IMG/VR virus record: IMGVR_UViG_3300045970_000298
Location: 1 to 30,572 of that record
Reading direction: 5' to 3' (one strand)
Source of the DNA: a virus
Length of the DNA: 30,572 nucleotides
The position numbers were made by a program, and so were the translations under genes. The notes beneath the pieces are model-generated. The model was given only the letters and a program-made list of their open reading frames with translations, did no database searches and was not told the origin of the DNA. Below, piece by piece: positions 53 through 30,572 of this stretch (its first letter is position 1; every line of letters begins with the position of its first letter).

Positions 53-574
53 ATGCTGTTGATTGATCTTGATATTGAAGCAACCCAGCCAGAGTTCGCC
101 GCGCTGATCGGGATCTCACAGCCAGCGGTTTCCGCCCTGGTGAAGCGCGGAATCTTGTCTGCTGGCCAGACCATTGGTGAGTGGTTGCAGGCATACATCT
201 CCAACCTGCGCGAACAAGCCGCCGGCCGCTCCCTGGAACTGTCCGAAGAACGCGCCGGCCTGGCTCGTGAGCAAAAGCTCTTGGCGCGCATCAAGAAACA
301 GCGCGAGCTGGGCGAATGGGCGCCCATCGAGAATTTGACCCTGTTGCTTTCCAAGGTCACCTCACAGATGGCCTCCACGTTCGAAAGCATCCCGATCCAG
401 ATCAAGCGCCAATTCCCGGAGATGACCGCAGAACAGCTGAATCTGGTGCGTGAGGAACTGGCCAAGGCTCGCAACCTGCTAGTTTCCGTGGGATCAGAAG
501 CCGTCAAAGAAGCCGCCATGAGCATCGCTGACTACGTGGAAGAATACGACGATGGCGCCACCACGGCAGAATAA
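53..574 (+). CDS. terminase small subunit (Nu1-like)
   Basis: 173 residues. The N-terminal part (about residues 10-35, with EFAALIGISQPAVSALVKRG) is a helix-turn-helix that would recognise the cos or pac region. The middle (about 55-110) is Glu/Arg/Lys-rich and helical, and the C-terminus is acidic, where lambda Nu1 contacts the large subunit. In the family this protein marks phage DNA and recruits the large subunit for cutting and packaging. The ATG at 53 follows a GGGGG run at good spacing. It overlaps the large subunit gene by 23 bases, as Nu1 and A are closely coupled in lambda. Identification rests on the HTH plus the adjacent GpA-type large subunit. Confidence 0.85.
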   Translation: MLLIDLDIEATQPEFAALIGISQPAVSALVKRGILSAGQTIGEWLQAYISNLREQAAGRSLELSEERAGLAREQKLLARIKKQRELGEWAPIENLTLLLSKVTSQMASTFESIPIQIKRQFPEMTAEQLNLVREELAKARNLLVSVGSEAVKEAAMSIADYVEEYDDGATTAE

Positions 575-2600
575 CCCGCGTCGCGCTGCTGCCGACCGCA
601 TCATCCAGGCGGTCCTGCTGGGCCTGGAACCCTTGCGCGTCGCCGCCCCCATGCGCCTGTCCCAATGGGCTGCCAAGCACTTCTACCTTTCCGCCGAATC
701 CTCCTACACCGAGGCCCGTTGGGTCGCCTACCCATTCCAAACCGCCATCCTCGACTGCATCGGCAACGACGATATCATCGAAGTCGATTTCATGAAATCC
801 GCGCGTGTTGGCTACACCAAAATGATCCTGGCCGCCATTGGCTACTTCGCCGAGCACAAAAAGCGCAACCAGGCCCTCTGGCAGCCCAGCGATGCTGACC
901 GCGACGAATTCACCAAAGTCGAGCTGGAGCCCATGCTCCGAGACGTCCCGGTAATGGAAAAAGTCTTCCCCGTATTCCTCCAGCGTCACAAAGACAACAC
1001 CCTCAAAGCCAAAAAATTCCTCACCGGAATGCTGCATCTACGCGGCGGCACGGCCGCCAAAAACTACCGACGTATCAGCGTCGACGTCGTCTACCTCGAC
1101 GAACTGGACGGCTTCGACCAAGACATCGAAGGCGAAGGCGAGCCCTTTGCCCTGGCCCGCAAGCGCACCGAAGGCGCAATCTTCCCCAAGCTCATCTGCG
1201 GCACCACTCCAAAAACCGCCAACCTATCCCACATCGAAACCCGCGTCCGCCAGGCGCGCGAAATCTTCCTGTTCCATATTCCCTGCCCACATTGCGACTA
1301 TGAGCACCCCCTCACCTGGGGCGGAAAAGGCGAAAAAAAAGAAGCTATCGGCTTCATCTGGCGCGAAAACGACCCCAGCACCGTCGCCCACCTCTGCCCC
1401 GACTGCGGCGCCCTCTACGGACAGCATGAATACCTCAGCGTCAGCCCGCGTGGCCGCTGGATCAACCCCAATACCGGCACCTGGATCGACCCGCAAAGCC
1501 AGTTTCGCAGCCCCGAAAACCACCTCATCCAGCCGCCCGCACACCTCGCCTTCCTTGTCTGGACTGCCTATAGCCCGCAGGCCACCTGGGAAAACATCGT
1601 GCGCGAATACGTCAACGCCGCCGCCAAGGCCGCCGCAGGCGACAAAACCTCCCTCAAAACCTTCATCAACACCACCCTCGGAGAACCCTTTGAAGAAGAA
1701 GTCGAAAAAGGCGATGCCCAAGAGCTCATCCGCCGCGCCGAACCCTACCCCCTGCGCGTCGTCCCGCGCGATGTGTTGGTGCTGGTCGCCTTTGTCGATG
1801 TACAAAACAACCGCTTTGAAATGGTCGTCTGGGGCTTTGGTCGAGGCGATGAAATGTGGGTCATCGACTACCAAGTTCTGGAAGACGTCAACCCCTTCCT
1901 CGACACCGACTGGGAGCAGCTGGACCAACACATGGAACGCCGGTACCCCCATGCTCGTGGCGGCACCATCGGCATCGAAATCGCCGGCATCGACACCGGC
2001 TATGCCACCCACCAGGCGTACCGATTCTGCCGCCCCCGGGAGCGCCGGAAAATCTATGCCACCAAGGGCGAAACCCAAGACAACCGACCCATCAAAAGCC
2101 GCAGATCCCTGGTCGACGTCAAGCAGCGCACGGGCCACCCCATCAAAAACGGCTGCAAGCTTTGGTTTATCGGCACCGATGCGGCGAAAGACACCATCTG
2201 GGGCCGCCTGCAAGTGGCGGAACCCGGGCCCGGTTACGTCCATTTCTCCAGCCAGCTGCCCAAGGCCTTCTACGACCAACTGGTCGCAGAAGTCCGCGTC
2301 AGCCAAAAAACCGGCGGACAACACATCTACAAATGGATCAAACCCACCCAGGCCACCCGCAACGAAGTACTGGATTGCACCGTCGGCGCTTTGTGGGGGC
2401 TGGAAATGCTCGTCGAGCGCTACCGTGACATCAACTTGTTCTGGAACGAAATGGACCGTCGCATTGCCCAGCCAGACCTGTTCGATGCCGCAGAGTATCC
2501 CGCCGCCGAACCGGAAGCACCTGCAAAACCCGCCCTCCCCATCCCACCCGCCTACACCGGCGGCGGCATTAACCTCAGCGGCTGGGCGCGTGGACAGTGA
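552..2600 (+). CDS. terminase large subunit (GpA family)
   Basis: 682 residues, the usual length for lambda gpA-type terminases. The Walker A-like segment is at about 82-90 (KSARVGYTK), a form typical of GpA. The Walker B-like stretch with acidic residues is at about 178-187 (DVVYLDELDG). Two CxxC pairs (C245/C248 and C282/C285) suggest a small zinc ribbon between the ATPase and nuclease halves. The C-terminal nuclease region begins near 'FVDVQNNRFE' at about 405. The enzyme cuts concatemeric DNA and pumps it into the prohead through the portal. The ATG at 552 lies inside the end of the small subunit gene. The stop overlaps the next start (GTGA), so the next gene is probably translationally coupled. 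Confidence 0.96.
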   Translation: MAPPRQNNPRRAAADRIIQAVLLGLEPLRVAAPMRLSQWAAKHFYLSAESSYTEARWVAYPFQTAILDCIGNDDIIEVDFMKSARVGYTKMILAAIGYFAEHKKRNQALWQPSDADRDEFTKVELEPMLRDVPVMEKVFPVFLQRHKDNTLKAKKFLTGMLHLRGGTAAKNYRRISVDVVYLDELDGFDQDIEGEGEPFALARKRTEGAIFPKLICGTTPKTANLSHIETRVRQAREIFLFHIPCPHCDYEHPLTWGGKGEKKEAIGFIWRENDPSTVAHLCPDCGALYGQHEYLSVSPRGRWINPNTGTWIDPQSQFRSPENHLIQPPAHLAFLVWTAYSPQATWENIVREYVNAAAKAAAGDKTSLKTFINTTLGEPFEEEVEKGDAQELIRRAEPYPLRVVPRDVLVLVAFVDVQNNRFEMVVWGFGRGDEMWVIDYQVLEDVNPFLDTDWEQLDQHMERRYPHARGGTIGIEIAGIDTGYATHQAYRFCRPRERRKIYATKGETQDNRPIKSRRSLVDVKQRTGHPIKNGCKLWFIGTDAAKDTIWGRLQVAEPGPGYVHFSSQLPKAFYDQLVAEVRVSQKTGGQHIYKWIKPTQATRNEVLDCTVGALWGLEMLVERYRDINLFWNEMDRRIAQPDLFDAAEYPAAEPEAPAKPALPIPPAYTGGGINLSGWARGQ

Positions 2601-8863: not shown

Positions 8864-9214
8864 ATGACCACGGAAAACAGTTACAACCCAAACGTCCGCC
8901 CCAGTGACCAAATCGCGGGGATTACCTCTGCACAGGTACAGGCCATTTACGGCATCCCGCAGGGCGGCACCATCAAGATCTACCCCACCGTGGCGGGCAG
9001 CGCCACGCTGTATACCTCGTGTTCACCTCTGGCGACCATTGCCGCCGATGTGGCCGGCAGTGACCTGACCACGCCGGGGGCCTCGGCCTTGCGCTGGGAC
9101 GCTTCCATTTCGGGTGTCGTCACCACCACCGACATTGTCATCGCCGCCGGAGCGCTCAAGGCCGCCGCGCTGAAAGTCAGCTCAGGCACCTGGACCATGG
9201 AGGTGGTGCGTTAA
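8864..9214 (+). CDS. small structural protein, unknown function
   Basis: 116 residues, mostly polar and small, with strands such as 'GGTIKIYPTVAGSATLYTS' (about 35-53) and 'GTWTMEVVR' at the end. A good AAGGA ribosome site lies at 8856-8860. The TAA overlaps the ATG of the SGNH hydrolase gene by one base, which suggests that the two are made together. Its size and beta-rich pattern fit an adaptor or capping protein, but I do not recognise the family. Confidence 0.5.
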   Translation: MTTENSYNPNVRPSDQIAGITSAQVQAIYGIPQGGTIKIYPTVAGSATLYTSCSPLATIAADVAGSDLTTPGASALRWDASISGVVTTTDIVIAAGALKAAALKVSSGTWTMEVVR

Positions 9215-10545
9215 TGGGCAAAACCGCCACCGTCCATTACAAGTCCCGGTTTACGGCATCCCAGTTCCCGGAGATCGTGGTGGGCGCCATCGGCGATTCC
9301 ATCGTTAACAACGGCGTCATCAACGGCAGCAACGACACCGATGCCTATTCCTATGCGCAAGTCTCCTGGCTGTTCGCTGGAGCGCGCCAGGCCAATGGGC
9401 TATGGATCGCCGGGCCGCATTTCGGCGTCGGCGGCTACACCTCCGCGCAGATCCTCGCCGCCGCGCCGTCCTGGACGCCGCTACAAGATCCCTATTGCAC
9501 CCATGTCTGCGTCATGTCTGGCACCAACGACATCGGCAGCTCATTAACTGCCGAGCAGTCCATCGCCGGGATCACCGCCATCTGGGACCTGGTGCTGAGC
9601 ACTGGCAGAGTACCTGTTGCCTGCTCGCTCCTCCCACGCGCCAGCGCCACCGATGCGCAACTGATTTTTAATGCGAAGGTGAATTGGTACATCCGCAAGG
9701 CCGCCGCGCGGTATGGCATTCCCTTCGCTGACTTCCTGACTGCCTGCCTGGACCCGGCCAGCGGCAACGCCATGAACTGGAAAACCAATTATCTCCTTAA
9801 TGGAGACTCCATCCATCCAGGACCGGCAGGCGCATGGGCCATGGGTGGCGCACTGAACGCCGCCATTCAGAGCATCGCGCCGGCAGTTTCAAAAACCTTC
9901 CCTAAAGCCTATTACCAGGGTACGGCAGCGGGCGTTTTGCCTGCCAATAACCTATTCCGCACCCTTACCGGAACCATCAACGTCAGTGGTTCCACGCCCA
10001 CATCCTTCGCCACCGTCACCGGGTCGCCGGTGCAGATCGTCTACGACCAGGCGACCTTCAATGCCACTTATCCTGGAAATGCCATGGCTCCTTATGGCGG
10101 GTCGAACGTGTGGGAGCTGGCCATCGATTCGGTGCAGAACTTCGTCACCATCAACAGCAGCGGCGCACCCATGACCGGTTTTTCTGCGGGCGACCGGGTA
10201 GGCTTTGCCTTTAACTTTAAGGTGGTGCCTGCCGGAGCGGAGGTGAACGCCATCCCGGGCTTTCAGATCGGCCTGCGTGACGCAGGAAATACCGCCGCGC
10301 AGATGCTGTGTTTTGGCAAAGTCACCGGCACCAGCTATTCCAGCCCCAACAGCGCCCTCACCGCCGGAGGCATGGCGGATGAGGGCTACATCTATCTGGA
10401 GCGGTCCCTCCCGGCGGGGCTGACCGCCAGCGGTTTATGTCTGTACGCAAGCATGAGCCAAACCGCCGGAAAAACCGGCGGCAAGTTGTTGCTCAGCAAT
10501 CTGATGGTCATCAATTACACAACCGGCGGAGCCATGGTGGTTTAA
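9214..10545 (+). CDS. SGNH/GDSL hydrolase with C-terminal beta domain
   Basis: 443 residues. The N-terminal domain (about 20-220) has the SGNH blocks: GDS with nucleophile Ser29, the block II glycine in 'GVGGYT' (about 72-77), GTND at 104-107 and the Asp199/His202 pair in DSIHP. All catalytic residues are present, so an active esterase is expected, probably removing acyl groups from a surface polysaccharide. Residues about 230-443 form a beta-rich domain with many Gly/Thr residues, likely for binding or virion attachment. No signal peptide is seen, consistent with assembly into particles. It sits in the accessory block between fibre-like genes and a membrane protein. The substrate is unknown. 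Confidence 0.8.
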   Translation: MGKTATVHYKSRFTASQFPEIVVGAIGDSIVNNGVINGSNDTDAYSYAQVSWLFAGARQANGLWIAGPHFGVGGYTSAQILAAAPSWTPLQDPYCTHVCVMSGTNDIGSSLTAEQSIAGITAIWDLVLSTGRVPVACSLLPRASATDAQLIFNAKVNWYIRKAAARYGIPFADFLTACLDPASGNAMNWKTNYLLNGDSIHPGPAGAWAMGGALNAAIQSIAPAVSKTFPKAYYQGTAAGVLPANNLFRTLTGTINVSGSTPTSFATVTGSPVQIVYDQATFNATYPGNAMAPYGGSNVWELAIDSVQNFVTINSSGAPMTGFSAGDRVGFAFNFKVVPAGAEVNAIPGFQIGLRDAGNTAAQMLCFGKVTGTSYSSPNSALTAGGMADEGYIYLERSLPAGLTASGLCLYASMSQTAGKTGGKLLLSNLMVINYTTGGAMVV

Positions 10546-22587: not shown

Positions 22588-22857
22588 ATGAGCATTCTTT
22601 CCGCCATCGATTCCGCCTATCAGGCATTGCAAACCGGCAAGCAACTCGCCAATCCACACGCCTGGAGCAACGCCGCCACCACCAAAGGCCTGCTGGCCTC
22701 ATTGATCACTGCGCTGGTCGGCCTGGCCCATGCCTATGACATTCCCATTGAGGTGAGCGGCGTGGACGTGCAAAGCATGGCCCTGGGCCTGTCTTCCCTG
22801 GGCATGGTGATCTCGCAGTTGCTGCACATCGTCAGCAACAAAAACGCGGGGTTGTAA
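22588..22857 (+). CDS. small membrane protein, holin-like
   Basis: 89 residues. Two hydrophobic stretches (about 33-48, 'KGLLASLITALVGLAHAY', and about 62-83, 'SMALGLSSLGMVISQLLHIV') are separated by a short polar loop, with a Lys at the C-terminus. This is the size and layout of small phage holins, but similar proteins of unknown role are also found among tail genes. An AGAGG ribosome site is present. It is coupled to the next gene by TAATG. There is no endolysin next to it, so the lysis call is tentative. Confidence 0.45.
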   Translation: MSILSAIDSAYQALQTGKQLANPHAWSNAATTKGLLASLITALVGLAHAYDIPIEVSGVDVQSMALGLSSLGMVISQLLHIVSNKNAGL

Positions 22858-24457: not shown

Positions 24458-24874
24458 ATGAGCGCGCTGTCTCTCAACGTTACGGTCCGCAACAGCCGCG
24501 CCCAGCAAATTTTCAACGCGCTGGACGCCAACACCAACCCGGGCGTCTGGCAGTTTTACACCGCACCACGCCCCACCCTACCGGGCGACGCCGTCACCAC
24601 GCAGACTTTGCTCGGCACCTGCACGCTGTCCAAACCCAGCGGCACCGTCAGCGCCGGCGTGGCCACCTTCGCCAGCATCACCGACGACGCCCTGGCCGAT
24701 GCCGATGGTTATGTGGCCTGGGTGCGCATGCTCGATGGTGCGGGAGGATGGGTGGCGGACTGTGATGTCACCCTCACCAGCGGGGCCGGACCCATCAAGC
24801 TGCCCTCCTTGCGCATCTACCAGGGCGGCACCATCCACGTCGCCACTGCCGTACTCACCGAGGGCAATGCCTGA
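24458..24874 (+). CDS. small tail protein upstream of hub
   Basis: 138 residues. 'RNSRAQQIFNALDANTNPG' followed by 'FYTAPRP' and 'TLLGTCTLSKPSG' is a pattern seen in small structural proteins of siphophages just before the hub gene. The rest is beta-rich, with a conserved-looking end (SLRIYQGGTIHVATAVLTEG). The TGA overlaps the hub ATG (TGATGG), so the two are coupled. No enzymatic motif is present. Confidence 0.6.
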   Translation: MSALSLNVTVRNSRAQQIFNALDANTNPGVWQFYTAPRPTLPGDAVTTQTLLGTCTLSKPSGTVSAGVATFASITDDALADADGYVAWVRMLDGAGGWVADCDVTLTSGAGPIKLPSLRIYQGGTIHVATAVLTEGNA

Positions 24875-26751
24875 TGGCTGCCTACCAGGCGCCGCCGTTT
24901 GATCAGGTCAACCTGTTTCTGGCCGACGCGCCGCCGCTGGATGCGGAGCTCAATCTCGACATCGCCCAATACGGCCACAGCAACGCCAGCTTGGTGGTTA
25001 CCCTGGAGGGCGTCACCCTTCAGGCCCTGGGCCGCTGGAACTTCATTCATTCTGCAGATTTCGCCGCCAGCCTGGACGATGTGGGCTTGGCTGCCTCGGG
25101 CGCATTCGACATCAATGTCTGGCGCGGCGTGCTGGGCAAAGTGGACGGAGCCTGGCAAATGGCCGACACCCACGCGCCGCAAAATCGCGGGCCGTGGGCA
25201 GACTCCACCCATGTGCGGGAGGAGGATCGCATCGGCATTACTTCTGCCGATGGCCTGGGAACGCGTGCCTATTTGAGCTGGGCCGATGACCTGCCCTTGC
25301 GCAATGCCTCGCACATCGCCCACACCGAAGCGGATCGGCTACAGACTGCACGCGGATCTGCTTTTATGGGGCTATATCCCCATCGGCTGGATCAGTATCA
25401 GGTGTATACCGAGGCGGATCACCGCAAGACGGCCAGCGGATCGGTGTGGATGTACCTTTATCCGCATCGAGCAGGCGATGCTTTAGGTTGGATGGATGCC
25501 GATCTTAAATCACTCACATCTGAGTCATTATGGCGGCGCGAGGCCCTGGGGCATCTCATCGGCCGCGTGTTCCCCTGGCAAATGGGCCGCCCCCCCTTGC
25601 CGGGCTCCAGCACCGTCATCGATCCCGTTCCGCCCACCGTCACGCCGCCCTATCTGCCGCCCGATCACGCCGACGTTATCCTGCGATTTGCGGCACTGCT
25701 GCCGGTCAACACCACGCTGATCCTCGGCGGTTTGCCGGTTCCCATCCTTCCCTCCCTACGGGTTTACATCGTGGCCAACTCCATCGCCCTGGTCCGCCTT
25801 GCGGACAATGTCACCATCCTCTGCAACCGCATCAACCTCAGCACCGATTTCAAATCCTGGTGCTGGTCCTTCGATGCGGACGTGCCCTATTCCGAGCTCA
25901 GCAAATTCAACTTGCTCAATGGTCCGGTGGAGCTGCAACTCACCCTCAACGGGTTGACCTGGAAACTCATGGCCGAGCAAATGCGCGACACCCGCAAGTT
26001 CGGCGGAAACTCCCTATCCATTTCTGGGCGCTCCCTGTCCGCCTACCTGGCCGCGCCCTATGCGCCCGTGCAAAGCACCGCCAACACCGTCGCCCGCAAC
26101 GCCGCGCAGCTGGCCGACGACGCCCTGGCCAACACCGGCTGGACCATGGACTGGGCCGCGCAGGACTGGCTGGTCACCGCCGGGGCCTACAGCATCGAGC
26201 GGCTGACGCCCATCGAAATCATCAACCGCCTGGCCGAAGCCGCCGGGGCCTATGCGCAAAGCGACGACAGTGCCAAGACCATCCACGTCCAACCCGTCTA
26301 CCCGCTGCTGCCCTGGGTGTGGGACTCGTCCACGCCCAACATCATCCTGTCCGAGTCGGCGATCCGCTCCATCGGCAGCGAGTGGAAAGAAAAGCCCGGC
26401 TACAACGTCGTCAACGTCACCGGCCAGCAGCAAGGCGTCAGCGTCAATGCCGTGATCAACGGCACCGCCGGCGACGTGGCCGCGCCGCAAATCGTCGACG
26501 CCCTGTGCACCCATCCCGACATGGGCCGCGCCAGGGCCATGGCCGTGCTGGGCGACACCGGCAAACAATCCACCATCACCCTCGATCTACCGGTGTACGA
26601 CACCACCGGCGTGATCCATCCCGGCAAACTGTTGCGCATCGACGGCAGTAGTTCCTGGTTCGGCCTGACCCGTGCCGTGCGCGTCTCCGCCGACTGGTCC
26701 GACGGCCTGCGCATAAACCAAAGCATCGAACTGGAGCGCCACCATGCCTAA
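24874..26751 (+). CDS. tail hub protein (gp27/gpP-like)
   Basis: 625 residues. From about 270 to the end the protein resembles baseplate/tail hub proteins (CNRINLSTDFKSWCWSFD, 'TPIEIINRLAEAAGAYAQ', 'EKPGYNVVNVTGQQQG'). In gp27-type hubs this region forms a trimeric ring at the tail tip. The N-terminal 230 residues are an additional region with a tandem repeat of about 28 residues (152-179 and 180-207), each with EAD, GS and LYPHR, followed by a partial third unit. A Pro-rich linker (SSTVIDPVPPTVTPPYLPP) separates the halves. The last bases overlap the following small gene by eight. Confidence 0.75.
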   Translation: MAAYQAPPFDQVNLFLADAPPLDAELNLDIAQYGHSNASLVVTLEGVTLQALGRWNFIHSADFAASLDDVGLAASGAFDINVWRGVLGKVDGAWQMADTHAPQNRGPWADSTHVREEDRIGITSADGLGTRAYLSWADDLPLRNASHIAHTEADRLQTARGSAFMGLYPHRLDQYQVYTEADHRKTASGSVWMYLYPHRAGDALGWMDADLKSLTSESLWRREALGHLIGRVFPWQMGRPPLPGSSTVIDPVPPTVTPPYLPPDHADVILRFAALLPVNTTLILGGLPVPILPSLRVYIVANSIALVRLADNVTILCNRINLSTDFKSWCWSFDADVPYSELSKFNLLNGPVELQLTLNGLTWKLMAEQMRDTRKFGGNSLSISGRSLSAYLAAPYAPVQSTANTVARNAAQLADDALANTGWTMDWAAQDWLVTAGAYSIERLTPIEIINRLAEAAGAYAQSDDSAKTIHVQPVYPLLPWVWDSSTPNIILSESAIRSIGSEWKEKPGYNVVNVTGQQQGVSVNAVINGTAGDVAAPQIVDALCTHPDMGRARAMAVLGDTGKQSTITLDLPVYDTTGVIHPGKLLRIDGSSSWFGLTRAVRVSADWSDGLRINQSIELERHHA

Positions 26752-26968
26752 CCCCTGGGCCGAGTTCCGGCAGCTCTTTCCCAACGCACCCAACCTCATC
26801 GGCACCGTCCTCGAGACCCACAGCGACGGCACCGTCACAGTCCACTTTCCCGACGGCGGCACGCAGCGCGTGCTGGGCACCAACTCCGTAGGCGTCACCG
26901 TGCTCGTGCGAGAGGGCATCGTGCTCAGCGAATCGCCGAGCTTGCCCACCTACACACTCTACATCTGA
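26744..26968 (+). CDS. small OB-like tail tip protein
   Basis: 74 residues. It reads as a short beta-barrel: 'NLIGTVLETHSDGTVTVHFPDGG' (about 17-39, in part) and 'VGVTVLVREGIVLSE'. The pattern, a strand followed by a DGT turn and further strands, resembles the OB-fold part of gpV-type baseplate spike proteins, which sit under the hub. It overlaps the hub gene by eight bases, supporting a shared role. Without a C-terminal spike domain it may be only an adaptor. Confidence 0.6.
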   Translation: MPNPWAEFRQLFPNAPNLIGTVLETHSDGTVTVHFPDGGTQRVLGTNSVGVTVLVREGIVLSESPSLPTYTLYI

Positions 26969-26975
26969 GGGTTTT

Positions 26976-27194
26976 ATGCAAATCGCAAAACTGGAAACCG
27001 CAGCCGAGCACTTCGCCCAGTCCGGGCTATCTTTGCTGAAAGGATTAATCCACATCGTCAGCGCCCTGGCGCCCGTGGCGGAAGTCGTTGGAGCAGCAGT
27101 AGGACAGCCCGAAGTCGCGGCGGCCGCCAAGCTGGCGGAAGCTACAGCAACGGCAGCGGATGCGGCGTTGGAGAAGGTGACAGCAGGGGGTTAA
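26976..27194 (+). CDS. small helical protein at the end of the tail operon
   Basis: 72 residues, almost entirely helical and Ala-rich (KLETAAEHFAQSGLSLLKGL, then 'AAAAKLAEATATAADAALEK'), with one weakly hydrophobic segment (about 24-42). It has a GAGGG ribosome site directly after the previous stop. It is the last gene of the rightward late operon before the attachment region. It could be an amphipathic membrane-active or lysis accessory protein; I do not recognise a family. Confidence 0.45.
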   Translation: MQIAKLETAAEHFAQSGLSLLKGLIHIVSALAPVAEVVGAAVGQPEVAAAAKLAEATATAADAALEKVTAGG

Positions 27195-27219
27195 TCTGCT
27201 ATTTCTGGATATGGGTAAA

Positions 27220-27250: not shown

Positions 27251-27260
27251 GAGTGTGGCA
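27251..27260 (+). repeat. 10-bp direct repeat, left arm
   Basis: GAGTGTGGCA recurs exactly at 27457-27466. The two copies flank the tRNA-Cys core, 47 bases to its left and 100 bases to its right. Paired short direct repeats on both sides of a core are what arm-type integrase sites look like in lambda-like attP regions; binding is inferred. Confidence 0.4.
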
Positions 27261-27307: not shown

Positions 27308-27356
27308 GCGGCCTGCAAAGCCGTCTAAGCCGGTTCGATTCCGACCTCAGCCTCCA
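27308..27356 (+). other. attP: attP core: 3' half of a tRNA-Cys gene
   Basis: The 49 bases correspond to tRNA positions 27-76 without variable-length surprises. They give an anticodon stem GCGGC/GCCGT around the loop CTGCAAA (anticodon GCA, Cys), a variable loop, a T-arm with loop TTCGATT, and the acceptor strand CTCAGCC, discriminator T and CCA. The T-stem has one C-A mismatch. The acceptor 5' strand and D-arm are missing upstream, so this is not a working tRNA. It is the usual target segment for tyrosine integrases that restore the 3' end of a tRNA on insertion. Confidence 0.85.
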
Positions 27357-27408
27357 TTCAAATCCTTAATCCAAAAAGAATTAGCCAGTAATATGGCCAT
27401 TTCTGCAT

Positions 27409-27438
27409 TTGCCAAAACCATCCTAAAACCGGTATAAA
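27409..27438 (+). promoter_or_regulatory. candidate integrase promoter
   Basis: TTGCCA (27409-27414) and TATAAA (27433-27438) are separated by 18 bases and resemble sigma-70 -35 and -10 boxes. Transcription would start near 27445, ahead of the palindrome at 27461 and the integrase ATG at 27500. It lies in the AT-rich part of the region. Confidence 0.5.
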
Positions 27439-27456: not shown

Positions 27457-27475
27457 GAGTGTGGCACGGTGCCAC
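27457..27475 (+). promoter_or_regulatory. palindrome overlapping right direct repeat
   Basis: GTGGCAC G GTGCCAC (27461-27475) is a perfect 7-bp dyad with one central base. It overlaps the second copy of GAGTGTGGCA (27457-27466). It lies just after the predicted transcription start and 24 bases before the integrase ATG, so it could be an operator for the integrase or a repressor, or a leader hairpin. Confidence 0.45.
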
Positions 27476-27499
27476 GCGGGATTGCTAAAAAGGCCGTCT

Positions 27500-28552
27500 A
27501 TGTCCACCGTCCGAAAACGCCCCAACGGAACCTACCAGGTCACGATCCGGCGCAATATCCTGCCTAAGCCCCATTACGCCACCTTTGATACAGAGGCGGA
27601 AGCGACTCGGTATGCGCAGCGTATGGAGACTTTATTGAATCGCGGCGTGGTGCCGGATGCGTTGCGAGCGGAGCCTAAGCGGGAGGTGGTGATTGGGGAT
27701 TGGGTGGATCGGTATTTGTCCCAGGTGCATGTATCTGCCCATGATCGGGATGTGTTGACGCGGCTGGATCTGCAGTCTCTACGTGGCGTTGAGGTGCATT
27801 TGCTGGATGTGCATCGGGTGATGCAGTGGGTGACGGCGATGAAGACCGCCGGCCTGGCGCCGGGGACGATTCGGAAAAAGGTGGGCGCGATGGCGCGGGT
27901 GTTTGATTGGTGCGTGATTGCGGAGTTGGCGGATCTGAATCCTTTTCGCCTGATCCCGAAGCGCTATTCCATCTACACGCCTTCCGATGGTGAGGCGGTG
28001 CGGGATGTGGAGCGGGATCGGCGGCTGCATCCGGGCGAAGAGGATGCCTTGCGGGCGGCCATGGCGGGGATGTTGTCGGTGGATCGGGATGCCTGGGTGC
28101 TGTTGTTTACCCTGGCCATCGAGACGGCGATGCGTCTGCGGGAGATGTACACGCTCCGGTGGGAGCAGGTGGACGTGGATCGGCGCACGATCTTTCTGGA
28201 CAAGACCAAAAACGGCGATAAGCGCCAGGTGCCGCTGTCCAGCGTTGCCCTTGCCTGTCTGGGCGGCATTCCTGCGCGCAGCGGGTTGTTGTTCCCCTGG
28301 TGGGATGGGAATGATCGAAGCCTGAAAAAAACCACCGCGAGGTTATCCTCGAAATGGTCGCGGATTGCGCGGGATGCGGGCTGTGAGGATCTGAACTTTC
28401 ACGACCTTCGGCACGAGGCGACTTGCCGATTGTATGAGCGCACGCGGTTGACGGATGTGCAGATTGCCCGGATCACCGGTCACAAAACGCTGATTATGCT
28501 CAAGCGCTATGCCAGCCTGCGCGGCAGTGATTTAGCTGGGGAGCTCTGGTAG
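27500..28552 (+). CDS. int: tyrosine integrase
   Basis: 350 residues. The N-terminal part (1-60) is a basic arm-binding domain (STVRKRPNGTYQVTIRR). About 62-155 is the core-binding domain, and 175-350 the catalytic domain. Catalytic residues visible are Arg212 (AMRLRE), Lys237 (TKNGDK), His301 and Arg304 (HDLRHE), His328 (TGHKT) and Tyr337 (LKRYAS). The enzyme would recombine attP with the host tRNA-Cys gene. ATG 27500 has AAAAAGG seven bases upstream; an in-frame earlier start at 27461 lies in the palindrome and is rejected. It overlaps the opposite-strand excisionase-like gene by 21 bases at the 3' ends. The G-rich codon use differs from the C-rich late genes. Confidence 0.95.
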   Translation: MSTVRKRPNGTYQVTIRRNILPKPHYATFDTEAEATRYAQRMETLLNRGVVPDALRAEPKREVVIGDWVDRYLSQVHVSAHDRDVLTRLDLQSLRGVEVHLLDVHRVMQWVTAMKTAGLAPGTIRKKVGAMARVFDWCVIAELADLNPFRLIPKRYSIYTPSDGEAVRDVERDRRLHPGEEDALRAAMAGMLSVDRDAWVLLFTLAIETAMRLREMYTLRWEQVDVDRRTIFLDKTKNGDKRQVPLSSVALACLGGIPARSGLLFPWWDGNDRSLKKTTARLSSKWSRIARDAGCEDLNFHDLRHEATCRLYERTRLTDVQIARITGHKTLIMLKRYASLRGSDLAGELW

Positions 28553-28828
28553 CTCCACAGCGCCACGCCTGCGCTTTGGCGCAGGTTTATGGATGGTGGT
28601 TTCTGCCTTTCTGCGCGCCTGCTCTCGTTTGGCCCTGGCGCGGAAATAGGCGATCAGATCCTCGCGCAGGAATACCCATTTCGCCGGTCTGCCCGCCTTC
28701 CCAACTCCGGACTCATCGCCCAGGCAGACCGCCGGGATTTCTCCGCTGGCGGCCAGGCTAATCACTTCCGATGTCTGCATGCGCAGTAGTTCTGCGGCTT
28801 CTTGTTGGGTTAGGGTTTCCATAACCAT
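28532..28828 (-). CDS. excisionase-like HTH protein
   Basis: 98 residues. The first 60 contain a MerR/Xis-type winged HTH (TQQEAAELLRMQTSEVISLAA ... WVFLREDLIAYFR, in parts), the pattern 'helix - AAELL - turn - V..L...G.IPA' typical of helix-turn-helix excisionases. The tail is basic (RAKREQARRKAE ... KRRRG), which suits DNA binding. It is the last gene of the leftward operon and meets the integrase tail to tail. A recombination directionality role is likely by position; it could also be a repressor. Start at 28828 with GGGA seven bases upstream. Confidence 0.65.
   Translation of the reverse strand: MVMETLTQQEAAELLRMQTSEVISLAASGEIPAVCLGDESGVGKAGRPAKWVFLREDLIAYFRARAKREQARRKAETTIHKPAPKRRRGAVELPELPS
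28568..28590 (+). terminator. hairpin after integrase gene
   Basis: CCTGCGC (28568-28574) and GCGCAGG (28579-28585) form a perfect 7-bp stem with a 4-base loop (TTTG), followed by TTTAT. It starts 15 bases after the integrase stop and lies within the opposite-strand gene. The T-run is short, so termination would be partial. Confidence 0.5.
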
Positions 28829-28860
28829 TAATTAATCCCAGATATCCAAAATATTAAAGG
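28825..28860 (-). repeat. junction repeat, copy 1
   Basis: A near-repeat of 29184-29222. On the + strand both carry CCATTAATTAATC, CAGATATCC and ATTAAAGG with small length differences (2 and 1 bases). On the coding strand it spans the end of one gene (F-N-x-x-D-I-W), its TAA and the start of the next gene. Confidence 0.7.
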
Positions 28861-28891
28861 TGGAGTTGCATTGGGTTTCAAATTCTTTCAT
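28832..28891 (-). CDS. 19-residue mini-gene resembling the ends of 29191-29361
   Basis: The frame encodes MKEFETQCNSTFNILDIWD. It begins in an ATGA overlap with the stop of the 99-residue gene and ends right before the TTAATTAATG that starts the excisionase-like gene. The 56-residue gene at 29191-29361 likewise begins MKE in an ATGA overlap and ends FNVWDIWGD before TTAATTAATG. The mini-gene therefore looks like a duplicated copy with its middle removed. It is either a translated tiny peptide, a coupling device that brings ribosomes to the next start, or a remnant. Confidence 0.45.
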   Translation of the reverse strand: MKEFETQCNSTFNILDIWD

Positions 28892-29187
28892 TGCTGCGTT
28901 CCATCCGGGCTACATTCTGGGTTCTCCTTGCTAGGTATAAGGTATAACTTTTCTAGTATCTTATTTGCCGTTTTGTGCCACGCCAGTACCACTCCATGTG
29001 CCTGCTCTAACATTTCTTGCAGCGCTCTTATCCGCGCCTCAAGCTCCTCGATTCTCTTATCTCTATGGGCAAACTCCGCAGCAATTCTCCTTTTGCTGTT
29101 TAGCTGCTCTGTCGTCATCGCGCTTATGTGCCTGGTGTAGTAAGGCTCAAGTTCCTCGATGTCTCTTTCTGCGTATAGTTTTTCCAT
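28888..29187 (-). CDS. coiled-coil early protein, unknown function
   Basis: 99 residues, highly charged and helical. About 25-65 is a strong coiled coil (KRRIAAEFAHRDKRIEELEA). The last 15 residues are disordered (SKENPECSPDGTQQ). It has GGGGAG eight bases before its ATG. The stop overlaps the next ATG (ATGA). Small coiled-coil genes of this type are usual in the early operons of temperate phages between the integrase and replication genes; the function is unknown. Confidence 0.6.
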   Translation of the reverse strand: MEKLYAERDIEELEPYYTRHISAMTTEQLNSKRRIAAEFAHRDKRIEELEARIRALQEMLEQAHGVVLAWHKTANKILEKLYLIPSKENPECSPDGTQQ

Positions 29188-29222
29188 TAATTAATCTCCC
29201 CAGATATCCCAAACATTAAAGG
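29184..29222 (-). repeat. junction repeat, copy 2
   Basis: Partner of 28825-28860. It holds the C-terminal codons (AFNVWDIWGD) and stop of the 56-residue gene and the ribosome site and start of the 99-residue gene. Confidence 0.7.
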
Positions 29223-29361
29223 CAGGCTTTCCGCAGATACTACAAGTGGCGCTCTGCACTAATCCCATGCCCGTATCGAGTTCTTTGAGTGGTCCCTTAA
29301 TATCGCATTCATGGGGATCAACGGGAGGTTGCGGCGACTGATTGTGTATGTATTCTTTCAT
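29191..29361 (-). CDS. small protein with CxxC, unknown function
   Basis: 56 residues from ATG 29361, which overlaps the upstream stop (ATGA); a start four codons earlier is possible. Cysteines at about 19 and a CSIC pair near 40-43, with a histidine at about 17, suggest a small zinc knuckle (HEC ... CSIC). The C-terminus (AFNVWDIWGD) is repeated in the mini-gene at 28832-28891. It belongs to the leftward early operon. I do not recognise the family. Confidence 0.6.
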   Translation of the reverse strand: MKEYIHNQSPQPPVDPHECDIKGPLKELDTGMGLVQSATCSICGKPAFNVWDIWGD

Positions 29362-29549
29362 CTCTTCACCCACTCCGGCTTTTTCAATAATGGAGCCCAG
29401 GCTAAATACTGCCCCTCGTCATACCAAGTACCGACCACGGTAATCCCTCCGGAGGTATACAGAAATAACCTTTCTCCTTTCGGCGGTGGCTCAATGGCGG
29501 GGTTGTGCCATTGGGTGGTATGGACGGGTTCCGGTTGGTCGGTGTGCAT
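29358..29549 (-). CDS. DUF551-like small protein
   Basis: 63 residues. 'TQWHNPAIEPPPKGERLFLYTSGGITVVGTWYDEG' (in part) and the end 'LAWAPLLKKPEW' are the core of DUF551 proteins: a short beta-rich domain with a WAPL.KP end that is frequent in early regions of proteobacterial phages. The function is not known. The stop overlaps the next ATG by four bases, and eight bases separate it from the preceding gene. Confidence 0.7.
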   Translation of the reverse strand: MHTDQPEPVHTTQWHNPAIEPPPKGERLFLYTSGGITVVGTWYDEGQYLAWAPLLKKPEWVKR

Positions 29550-29557
29550 GGCGATCT

Positions 29558-29791
29558 TTAGTTTCTGGACAAACGCTTGGGCTCATCCGCCATGCTCGGC
29601 ATAAATCCGCTGCCGTGCGATTGGCCGGTGGCCTTGATGTAATCCACCTCGGCTTTGGCGCTGTTGACCAGTACCTGGGCGACGTCGGCGATGGCCCTGG
29701 CGCGGTCGATGTCCATGGGTTTTTCTTCGTCTTGCAGGGCTTCCAGGGTGGCAAACAAATGGTTTCTTAAATCTTCAATCTTATTTTTCAT
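29558..29791 (-). CDS. conserved small phage protein next to HNH gene
   Basis: 77 residues, mostly helical: 'KNKIEDLRNHLFATLEALQD' then 'RARAIADVAQVLVNSAKAEVDYIKATG' (in parts). I recognise this pattern from many temperate phages and prophages, where it lies near an HNH or replication gene. No catalytic motif is visible. It overlaps the end of the HNH gene by 11 bases, so they are coupled. The function is unknown. Confidence 0.7.
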   Translation of the reverse strand: MKNKIEDLRNHLFATLEALQDEEKPMDIDRARAIADVAQVLVNSAKAEVDYIKATGQSHGSGFMPSMADEPKRLSRN

Positions 29792-30428
29792 CTCGGCTCT
29801 CGATTTTGCGTTTGAGTTTGGCGACGGTGCGGATGCAGTCTTTGAGTTCTTTTGGGTATCTGTGAATGGTATTTCGGCGCATCAATTCTTTGCGGTCGAT
29901 GGCTTCCAGGTTTTCAATCGTGCAATTCTTTTTATTGCCGTCCTTGAATACGACGACATGGCCGTTGGGTAATGGTCCGTGATGCTCGATCCAGAGTAAT
30001 ACATGGACTCCCATATAATCCTTTCGGGTGATTCCGGTTTCTGCGACTTTGCGTTCCGTATACCCTTCTTTGGTGACTCTCTCAAAACCCAGGGGTTGCC
30101 GGTTGTGTGCAACGGTGCCGGGCTTGAATTGGGTCTGTATGGCGCGCTCGTTGCTGACGATGACGGTTTTGCCTTTGTTCCATGAGGCGTGCCCGGGTTG
30201 AAATCGATGGCCGTTGTCTTGGCAATCCCGGGTTTTGCGGCCAGAGGCTGGGCTATTCATAAATTCATCGGATTTGCGCAGGCCGAGTTGGATGGCTTTT
30301 TGGTATATGCCAGTCAGCCCGCGATCCAGTTCGTCGGCGATGGTTTGGGTTTTGGTGTCTGGATAAAGTTGGCGCAAGCGCTCCAACTCCCTTAAGCTCC
30401 AGTGGCGTTTTTTACGCTTCGTCGTCAT
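29781..30428 (-). CDS. HNH endonuclease (HNH_3-type)
   Basis: 215 residues from ATG 30428. Residues 1-55 are a basic helical segment with a helix-turn-helix-like part (WSLRELERLRQLYP ... TIADELDRGLTGIYQKAIQLGL), likely DNA binding. The nuclease motif lies at 140-186 (VHVLLWIEHHGPLP ... FKDGNKKNCTIENLEAI, then ELMRRN). The second His of the classic H-DGN motif is Phe161, as in several phage HNH proteins, so activity is not assured. It may be a free-standing homing nuclease or have a role in early DNA metabolism. A longer frame upstream of 30428 overlaps the Lar-like gene and is rejected. Confidence 0.8.
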   Translation of the reverse strand: MTTKRKKRHWSLRELERLRQLYPDTKTQTIADELDRGLTGIYQKAIQLGLRKSDEFMNSPASGRKTRDCQDNGHRFQPGHASWNKGKTVIVSNERAIQTQFKPGTVAHNRQPLGFERVTKEGYTERKVAETGITRKDYMGVHVLLWIEHHGPLPNGHVVVFKDGNKKNCTIENLEAIDRKELMRRNTIHRYPKELKDCIRTVAKLKRKIESRDEK

Positions 30429-30572
30429 CGAATATGTCCGCCGTTTGATGATCGATGGGCATGCGTTGGTTCCATACGTGCAGCGCTTGGTGCTGTCCGG
30501 TGCTGGCGATTTCGTGACTGGCAATAGGTCCAGTGCAGCCGCATTGGTCGCAAAGGACTGCGTATACATTCA
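30412..30572 (-). CDS. Lar-like zinc-binding protein, partial
   Basis: The frame enters from beyond the right edge and ends at TAA 30412-30414, overlapping the HNH start by 17 bases. The visible part has 'VLCDQCGCTGPIASHEIA' and 'ALHVWNQRM', i.e. a CxxCG knuckle followed by GP and a WNxR end. This is the pattern of Lar-family restriction-alleviation proteins, small zinc proteins that dampen host type I restriction. The start lies outside the window. The frame is supported by the motif and by the absence of stops. Confidence 0.65.
   Translation of the reverse strand, partial: NVYAVLCDQCGCTGPIASHEIASTGQHQALHVWNQRMPIDHQTADIFDDDEA

Follow-up and report, generated by a model that had tools for sequence, protein, structure and literature searches.

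A half tRNA-Cys gene between tail and integrase genes, the probable attP of an unintegrated temperate phage

According to the Islander account (PMC4383910), tyrosine integrases split a tRNA gene, which the element restores while a displaced fragment is left behind, and tRNA gene fragments misread as genes are the subject of PMC9897764. One described element with a tRNA-cys target is the hopAR1 prophage of Pseudomonas syringae, for which PCR is reported to have shown excision and circularisation (PMC10107160); its likeness to the locus described here lies in the target. Curvibacter phage PCA1, isolated on plates and sequenced, is reported to possess 84 genes and one tRNA gene (PMC9763317). The annotated tRNA-Cys of PCA1 (OP588919, 23382-23453; L089 5760-5831) has the tail genes on one side and the integrase on the other, its sequence is a 3' half, and ARAGORN does not find a tRNA there. 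This reported phage tRNA gene is most likely, from its sequence, an attachment site (attP) rather than a working tRNA gene. Two Pseudomonas phages, 8P and vB_PaeM_USP_18, possess integrases 47% and 46% identical to the one described below, each with a half tRNA upstream. No account of the phage studied here was found in a narrow check of the literature.

The DNA analysed (the window) is the entire virus record IMGVR_UViG_3300045970_000298, 30,572 bases long; the features discussed are listed in Table 1. An initial annotation had identified 49 bases of the window as the 3' half of tRNA-Cys, including CCA, and this assignment is correct to the base. Read by hand, the core consists of the anticodon stem and loop (GCGGC, loop CTGCAAA with anticodon GCA, GCCGT), the variable bases CTAA, the T arm (GCCGG-TTCGATT-CCGAC), the acceptor strand CTCAGCC, a T and CCA. 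It matches the tRNA-Cys copies of a Methylococcaceae genome at 46 of 49 bases (E 3.7e-15) and the intact tRNA-Cys of genome G087 at 48 of 49, the best match among the genomes searched, a likeness to bacterial tRNA-Cys that, as a matter of sequence, is far beyond chance. The proposed comparison with bacterial tRNA-Cys genes thus gave close matches but no exact one: no genome contig that was searched contains the full 49-mer, nor does any searched viral contig contain a 46-base part of it. A phage collection searched with the att region returned three records with tRNA sequences at 86-87%, two of them annotated as tRNA-Cys. The 3' end of the tRNA is present in the window and the gene is not whole, the 5' half being absent from the left flank of the core. 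No complete tRNA was found by ARAGORN anywhere in the window. Rfam has no match in the window, nor in a 261-base stretch around the core at E values up to 1, a silence that fits a core which is only half a tRNA.

Table 1. Positions of the features discussed, numbered from the first base of the window.
Feature	Position	Strand	Evidence or remark
Terminase small subunit, Nu1-like	53..574	+	PF07471, phrog_57
Terminase large subunit, GpA type	552..2600	+	PF05876, PF20454
Tail protein	24874..26751	+	phrog_6079 E 6.9e-126; 36% to PCA1 tail protein
Small tail-end gene	26744..26968	+	phrog_5076 E 1.8e-17; PCA1 match at 22655-22855
72-aa ORF between tail module and probable attP	26976..27194	+	open reading frame
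Direct repeat D2	27198-27213 / 27396-27411
Putative integrase arm site, left (P) arm, GAGTGTGGCA	27251..27260	+	repeat of right-arm site; TGTGGCA starts at -54 from core
Probable attP core, tRNA-Cys 3' half (tRNA positions 27-76 including CCA)	27308..27356	+	reading by hand; tRNA-Cys gene matches
Putative integrase arm site, right (P') arm, GAGTGTGGCA	27457..27466	+	same 10 bases as left-arm site
Second putative right-arm site, inverted, CGTGGCA	27470..27476	-	motif; right-arm alignment with G321
Tyrosine integrase, 350 aa from ATG 27500	27500..28552	+	PF00589 E 1.2e-19; phrog_1 integrase E 4e-43
Excisionase-like HTH protein	28532..28828	-	HTH_17 E 8.1e-9; phrog_66 excisionase E 2.7e-5

Tail genes stand to the left of the core, and a tyrosine integrase followed by an excisionase-like gene to its right. 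The core sits 143 bases upstream of the integrase start; the integrase frame is open from GTG 27461. Residues R212, H301xxR304, H328 and Y337 of this integrase, which we take to be catalytic, are invariant in a four-sequence alignment. The excisionase-like protein also matches TIGR01764, under the cut-off of the model. On the left side, the counterpart of the small tail-end gene in PCA1 is the final same-strand tail-side gene ahead of the PCA1 attP, and the 72-aa reading frame between the tail module and the core has no PHROG or Pfam match. The remaining genes scanned encode terminase, portal, head and tail proteins and phage proteins of unknown function. PHROG and Pfam scans of the window genes thus agree with the initial annotation that tail genes lie on the left and the integrase on the right, with no host-like DNA among them, and neither an intact tRNA-Cys (ARAGORN) nor host genes (gene scans) were found beside the core in this record. 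The tail side joins the integrase side at one core, and no host DNA intervenes; the window is therefore very probably unintegrated phage DNA, and the junction the attP of a lambda-like temperate siphophage whose integrase would target the 3' half of a host tRNA-Cys. An attP of this kind is textbook material and ordinary phage biology; the present analysis adds an integrase family whose members use either of two tRNAs, integrated relatives that match the window, and another interpretation of the tRNA annotated in PCA1.

PCA1 has the same gene order as the window: tail protein, small gene, half tRNA-Cys, tyrosine integrase, excisionase. With the PCA1 record treated as circular, 12 of the 38 window proteins have collinear matches in it, and the common order includes tail module, core and integrase in succession. 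PCA1 differs from the window in its level of protein identity (24-42%), its arm sequences, its host, the length of its record (57.8 kb) and an extra minus-strand gene ahead of the core. In 8P and vB_PaeM_USP_18 the half tRNA is the 3' half of tRNA-Val, whereas that of the window is from tRNA-Cys.

Relatives of the window integrase were found in four viral contigs and at 54 genome loci. Upstream of the integrases at these 54 loci, ARAGORN identified an intact tRNA-Cys at 35, mostly with one or more tRNA-Gly genes ahead of it, a tRNA-Val(TAC) at 13, and none at six; among the six, inspection by eye shows a tRNA-Cys 3' half at L061 and L024 and a tRNA-Val 3' half at L046, the 5' half being absent. 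To judge from these neighbouring genes, the integrase family of the window inserts at tRNA genes. In a tree of 55 integrases, which leaves out two short proteins (L058 and L060) and in which L004, L005, L061, L062 and L066 were not entered, the window integrase clusters with four integrases of Methylococcaceae (support 96/93). The users of tRNA-Val form a single clade (100/100) that includes L046 and the integrases of 8P and vB_PaeM_USP_18; its tRNA-Val(TAC) loci are L032, L036, L038-L040, L045, L047-L049, L051, L063, L064, L087 and L088. Placed on a single tree and divided between two tRNA targets, these integrases offer suitable material for the study of target change. It seems rather likely that the window derives from a temperate phage of methanotrophs (Methylococcales) not yet represented in genome collections, with an integrase from a family widespread in Proteobacteria, in which tRNA-Cys is the main target and one lineage has switched to tRNA-Val(TAC). 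If so, the family would constitute a natural series on how tyrosine integrases change their target.

The 6.1 kb contig of Chromobacterium sphagni (L061) has an attR left arm joined to the integrase end of a prophage that is also integrated in the same assembly (L016/L070; 99.8% identity over 4390 bases), so that an attP-type junction is present beside attL and attR in one isolate assembly. The integrase frame of L061 is broken relative to that of L016. In the first 400 bases of a 51 kb contig from a Gallionellaceae MAG (L024), a tRNA-Cys 3' half without its 5' half stands upstream of a family integrase; by its sequence, this is another attP-type junction.

A search with the att region covered 26 genomes, representing 27 of the 54 integrase loci, and found many second copies of the core. 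Eighteen attL/attR pairs were assembled, 16 from this search and one each from the virus contig L002/L009 and from genome G321. Both cores are on one contig, 8.6-56 kb apart, in 15 of the 18 prophages, and the pairing is presumed for L028, L056 and L055, since their two cores are on different contigs. Among the 20 stretches taken, L080-L083 had an intact tRNA-Cys at the core and were excluded as attR; each of them is either an attL or an unoccupied gene copy. The left flanks of the attR sites are not tRNA, nor is the left flank of the core in the window. Identity between attL and attR begins at or before core position 6 in all 18 pairs and ends between positions 32 and 82. The anticodon loop consequently lies within the shared segment, and strand exchange probably takes place in the part of it that begins with this loop.

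In these integrated relatives the tRNA beside the integrase is intact, and the opposite end bears a copy of the core. On the virus contig L002 (G001; IMGVR_UViG_3300045049_000262), an intact tRNA-Cys with the integrase is present at one end and a second core 49 kb away at the other. The integrase of this contig is 49% identical to that of the window and its tRNA-Cys core 90% identical; unlike the window, it is integrated, with both attL and attR present, and has minus-strand ORFs of unknown kind at its attR end. The closest integrated relative is the prophage of G321, which possesses an integrase 66% identical to that of the window, beside it an excisionase-like gene whose product is 50% identical, an intact tRNA-Cys, and an attR 56 kb away. 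This prophage differs from the window in being integrated, and no other window protein was matched in the stretches searched. A 3287-aa reading frame without a PHROG match occupies the part of the G321 prophage beside attR (L133 2949-12812). Counterparts of the two flanks of the window core are found at opposite ends of the G321 prophage; by the arm comparisons given below, sequences that are 56 kb apart in G321 have counterparts that meet at one core in the window. The proposal that integration would place the tail side and the integrase side at the two extremities of a prophage is supported by these relatives, and prophages with attL and attR do exist in the family, though none carries the exact core of the window in the contigs searched.

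The right arms of the window and G321 align with a score of 33, which none of 1000 shuffles reached. The left arms give no significant score in plain local alignment (81 of 1000 shuffles), whereas anchoring the left arms of the window and of the G321 attR at the core reveals nine consecutive bases in common at an equal distance from it (2 of 5000 shuffles), and TGTGGCA, which has its place in the window left arm (Table 1), is found at -53 in G321. Of 20 left arms, those of 18 prophages, of PCA1 and of the window, 12 have a motif NGTGGYW on the plus strand at -57..-51, and none of 95 control blocks further inside has it; this count is to be taken as descriptive because the motif was read off the same arms and its first base was freed after a first version (A, C or G at base 1) had missed the left arm of the window. 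The informative part of this result is the strict position. The motif is present in 11 of the 15 same-contig pairs and in none of the three different-contig pairs, and is absent at the left position in PCA1. In the window, this conserved motif, derived from those same arms, flanks the core on both sides, and the GAGTGTGGCA and CGTGGCA sites are putative integrase-binding sites. The identification of the core as attP by the initial annotation thus gains support from the integrated relatives, from the junctions of published phages and from a putative arm motif on both sides.

According to the proposed mechanism, the integrase would bind the core around the anticodon stem-loop together with the putative arm sites on either side, and would recombine attP with an attB in the host tRNA-Cys. 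Beside the integrase, the phage-borne 3' half would make the tRNA whole again (attL), and the host's own 3' half, now displaced, would mark the tail end (attR). The excisionase-like protein may help to reverse the integration. The unintegrated DNA may have come from virions or have been replicating or excised, and would have been assembled as a linear fragment.

The initial annotation had called the window the circular or free form of the phage. The junction bears out the unintegrated state, but circularity is not established: the 30572-base record has neither direct nor inverted terminal repeats of at least 10 bases, nor is it a closed sequence. It is a linear fragment, beginning 52 bases ahead of the small terminase gene and stopping inside an open reading frame. 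Among terminase relatives the nearest is L213 (80% protein identity, and 78% DNA identity over 2.5 kb), which has about 7.9 kb upstream of its small terminase gene, where a repressor-like protein, a helicase and a primase were recognized by eye among the ORFs. Because this upstream stretch matches none of the other proteins of the window, the early part at least appears to be missing from the record. A megablast search of the phage collection with 12 kb of the late genes found no match, and a scan of viral contigs with the tail protein found no relative.

An identical local junction would be produced by a tandem lysogen, in which the attR tail end of one prophage stands directly before the integrase end of a second element at the same tRNA-Cys site. 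Tandems do not appear to be common, as a family integrase is present in the host-side flank (about 1 kb) of none of the 18 attR sites, even if L066 (Caballeronia mineralivorans) has a partial integrase match, 58 residues long, some 2.3 kb beyond the attR of a prophage, possibly the remnant of an earlier neighbouring element. Two elements would fit the step in G+C content after 28.5 kb (about 0.51 at 28501-30572, in the early region, and about 0.6 elsewhere), which is also compatible with a module border. They would fit as well the distribution of the integrase: of the 37 virus records taken from 82 loci with related terminase or capsid genes, only two have any integrase match, and these are distant, while none has the integrase family of the window, so that near relatives show no regular pairing of these late genes with this integrase. 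On the other hand, the isolated phage PCA1 has the order of tail genes, attP and integrase within one genome, and both arms of the window contain the identical 10-base putative site. A tandem is, on balance, improbable.

Still less probable is an assembly chimera, by which attR and attL reads of integrated phages would have been joined through the core. A 49-base repeat can confuse short k-mers, but junctions of the same kind recur in published phage records and in the C. sphagni isolate assembly that also contains the integrated form, and a chimera would require integrated copies, none of which was found with the exact core in the contigs searched. That the core might play no part in integration, being a phage-encoded tRNA gene or a degraded tRNA remnant, is hardly credible: phages do carry tRNAs, and the PCA1 core was annotated as one, yet the 5' half is absent, ARAGORN is silent in both phages, and the core stands shortly upstream of an integrase whose relatives adjoin tRNA-Cys.

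The initial annotation expected the core to reveal the chromosomal target and thereby the host. For the window, tRNA-Cys is supported as the target, but the host cannot be read from the core alone, which is weakly informative because it has no exact match and its near matches occur in more than one order. In the order of Methylococcaceae bacterium isolate 8 (G005), to which G321 also belongs and which is presumably Methylococcales, 25 of 311 genomes match the core with up to three mismatches, 10 of 311 with up to two, and one (G087) with a single mismatch; in the class of G005, six of 369 genomes match with up to two mismatches. The inference of a host rests on the integrase tree, which, more than the core, points to Methylococcaceae. 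At the level of order and no finer, the host probably belongs to the Methylococcales. A single junction thus indicates the lifestyle of the phage (temperate) and its chromosomal target (tRNA-Cys), and probably the order of its host.

Two other genes of the window deserve mention. A 77-aa protein (29558-29791) matches phrog_2044, labelled RNA polymerase beta subunit, a label that looks doubtful for so small a protein. A GDSL-like lipase/esterase is encoded within the head gene region (9214-10542).
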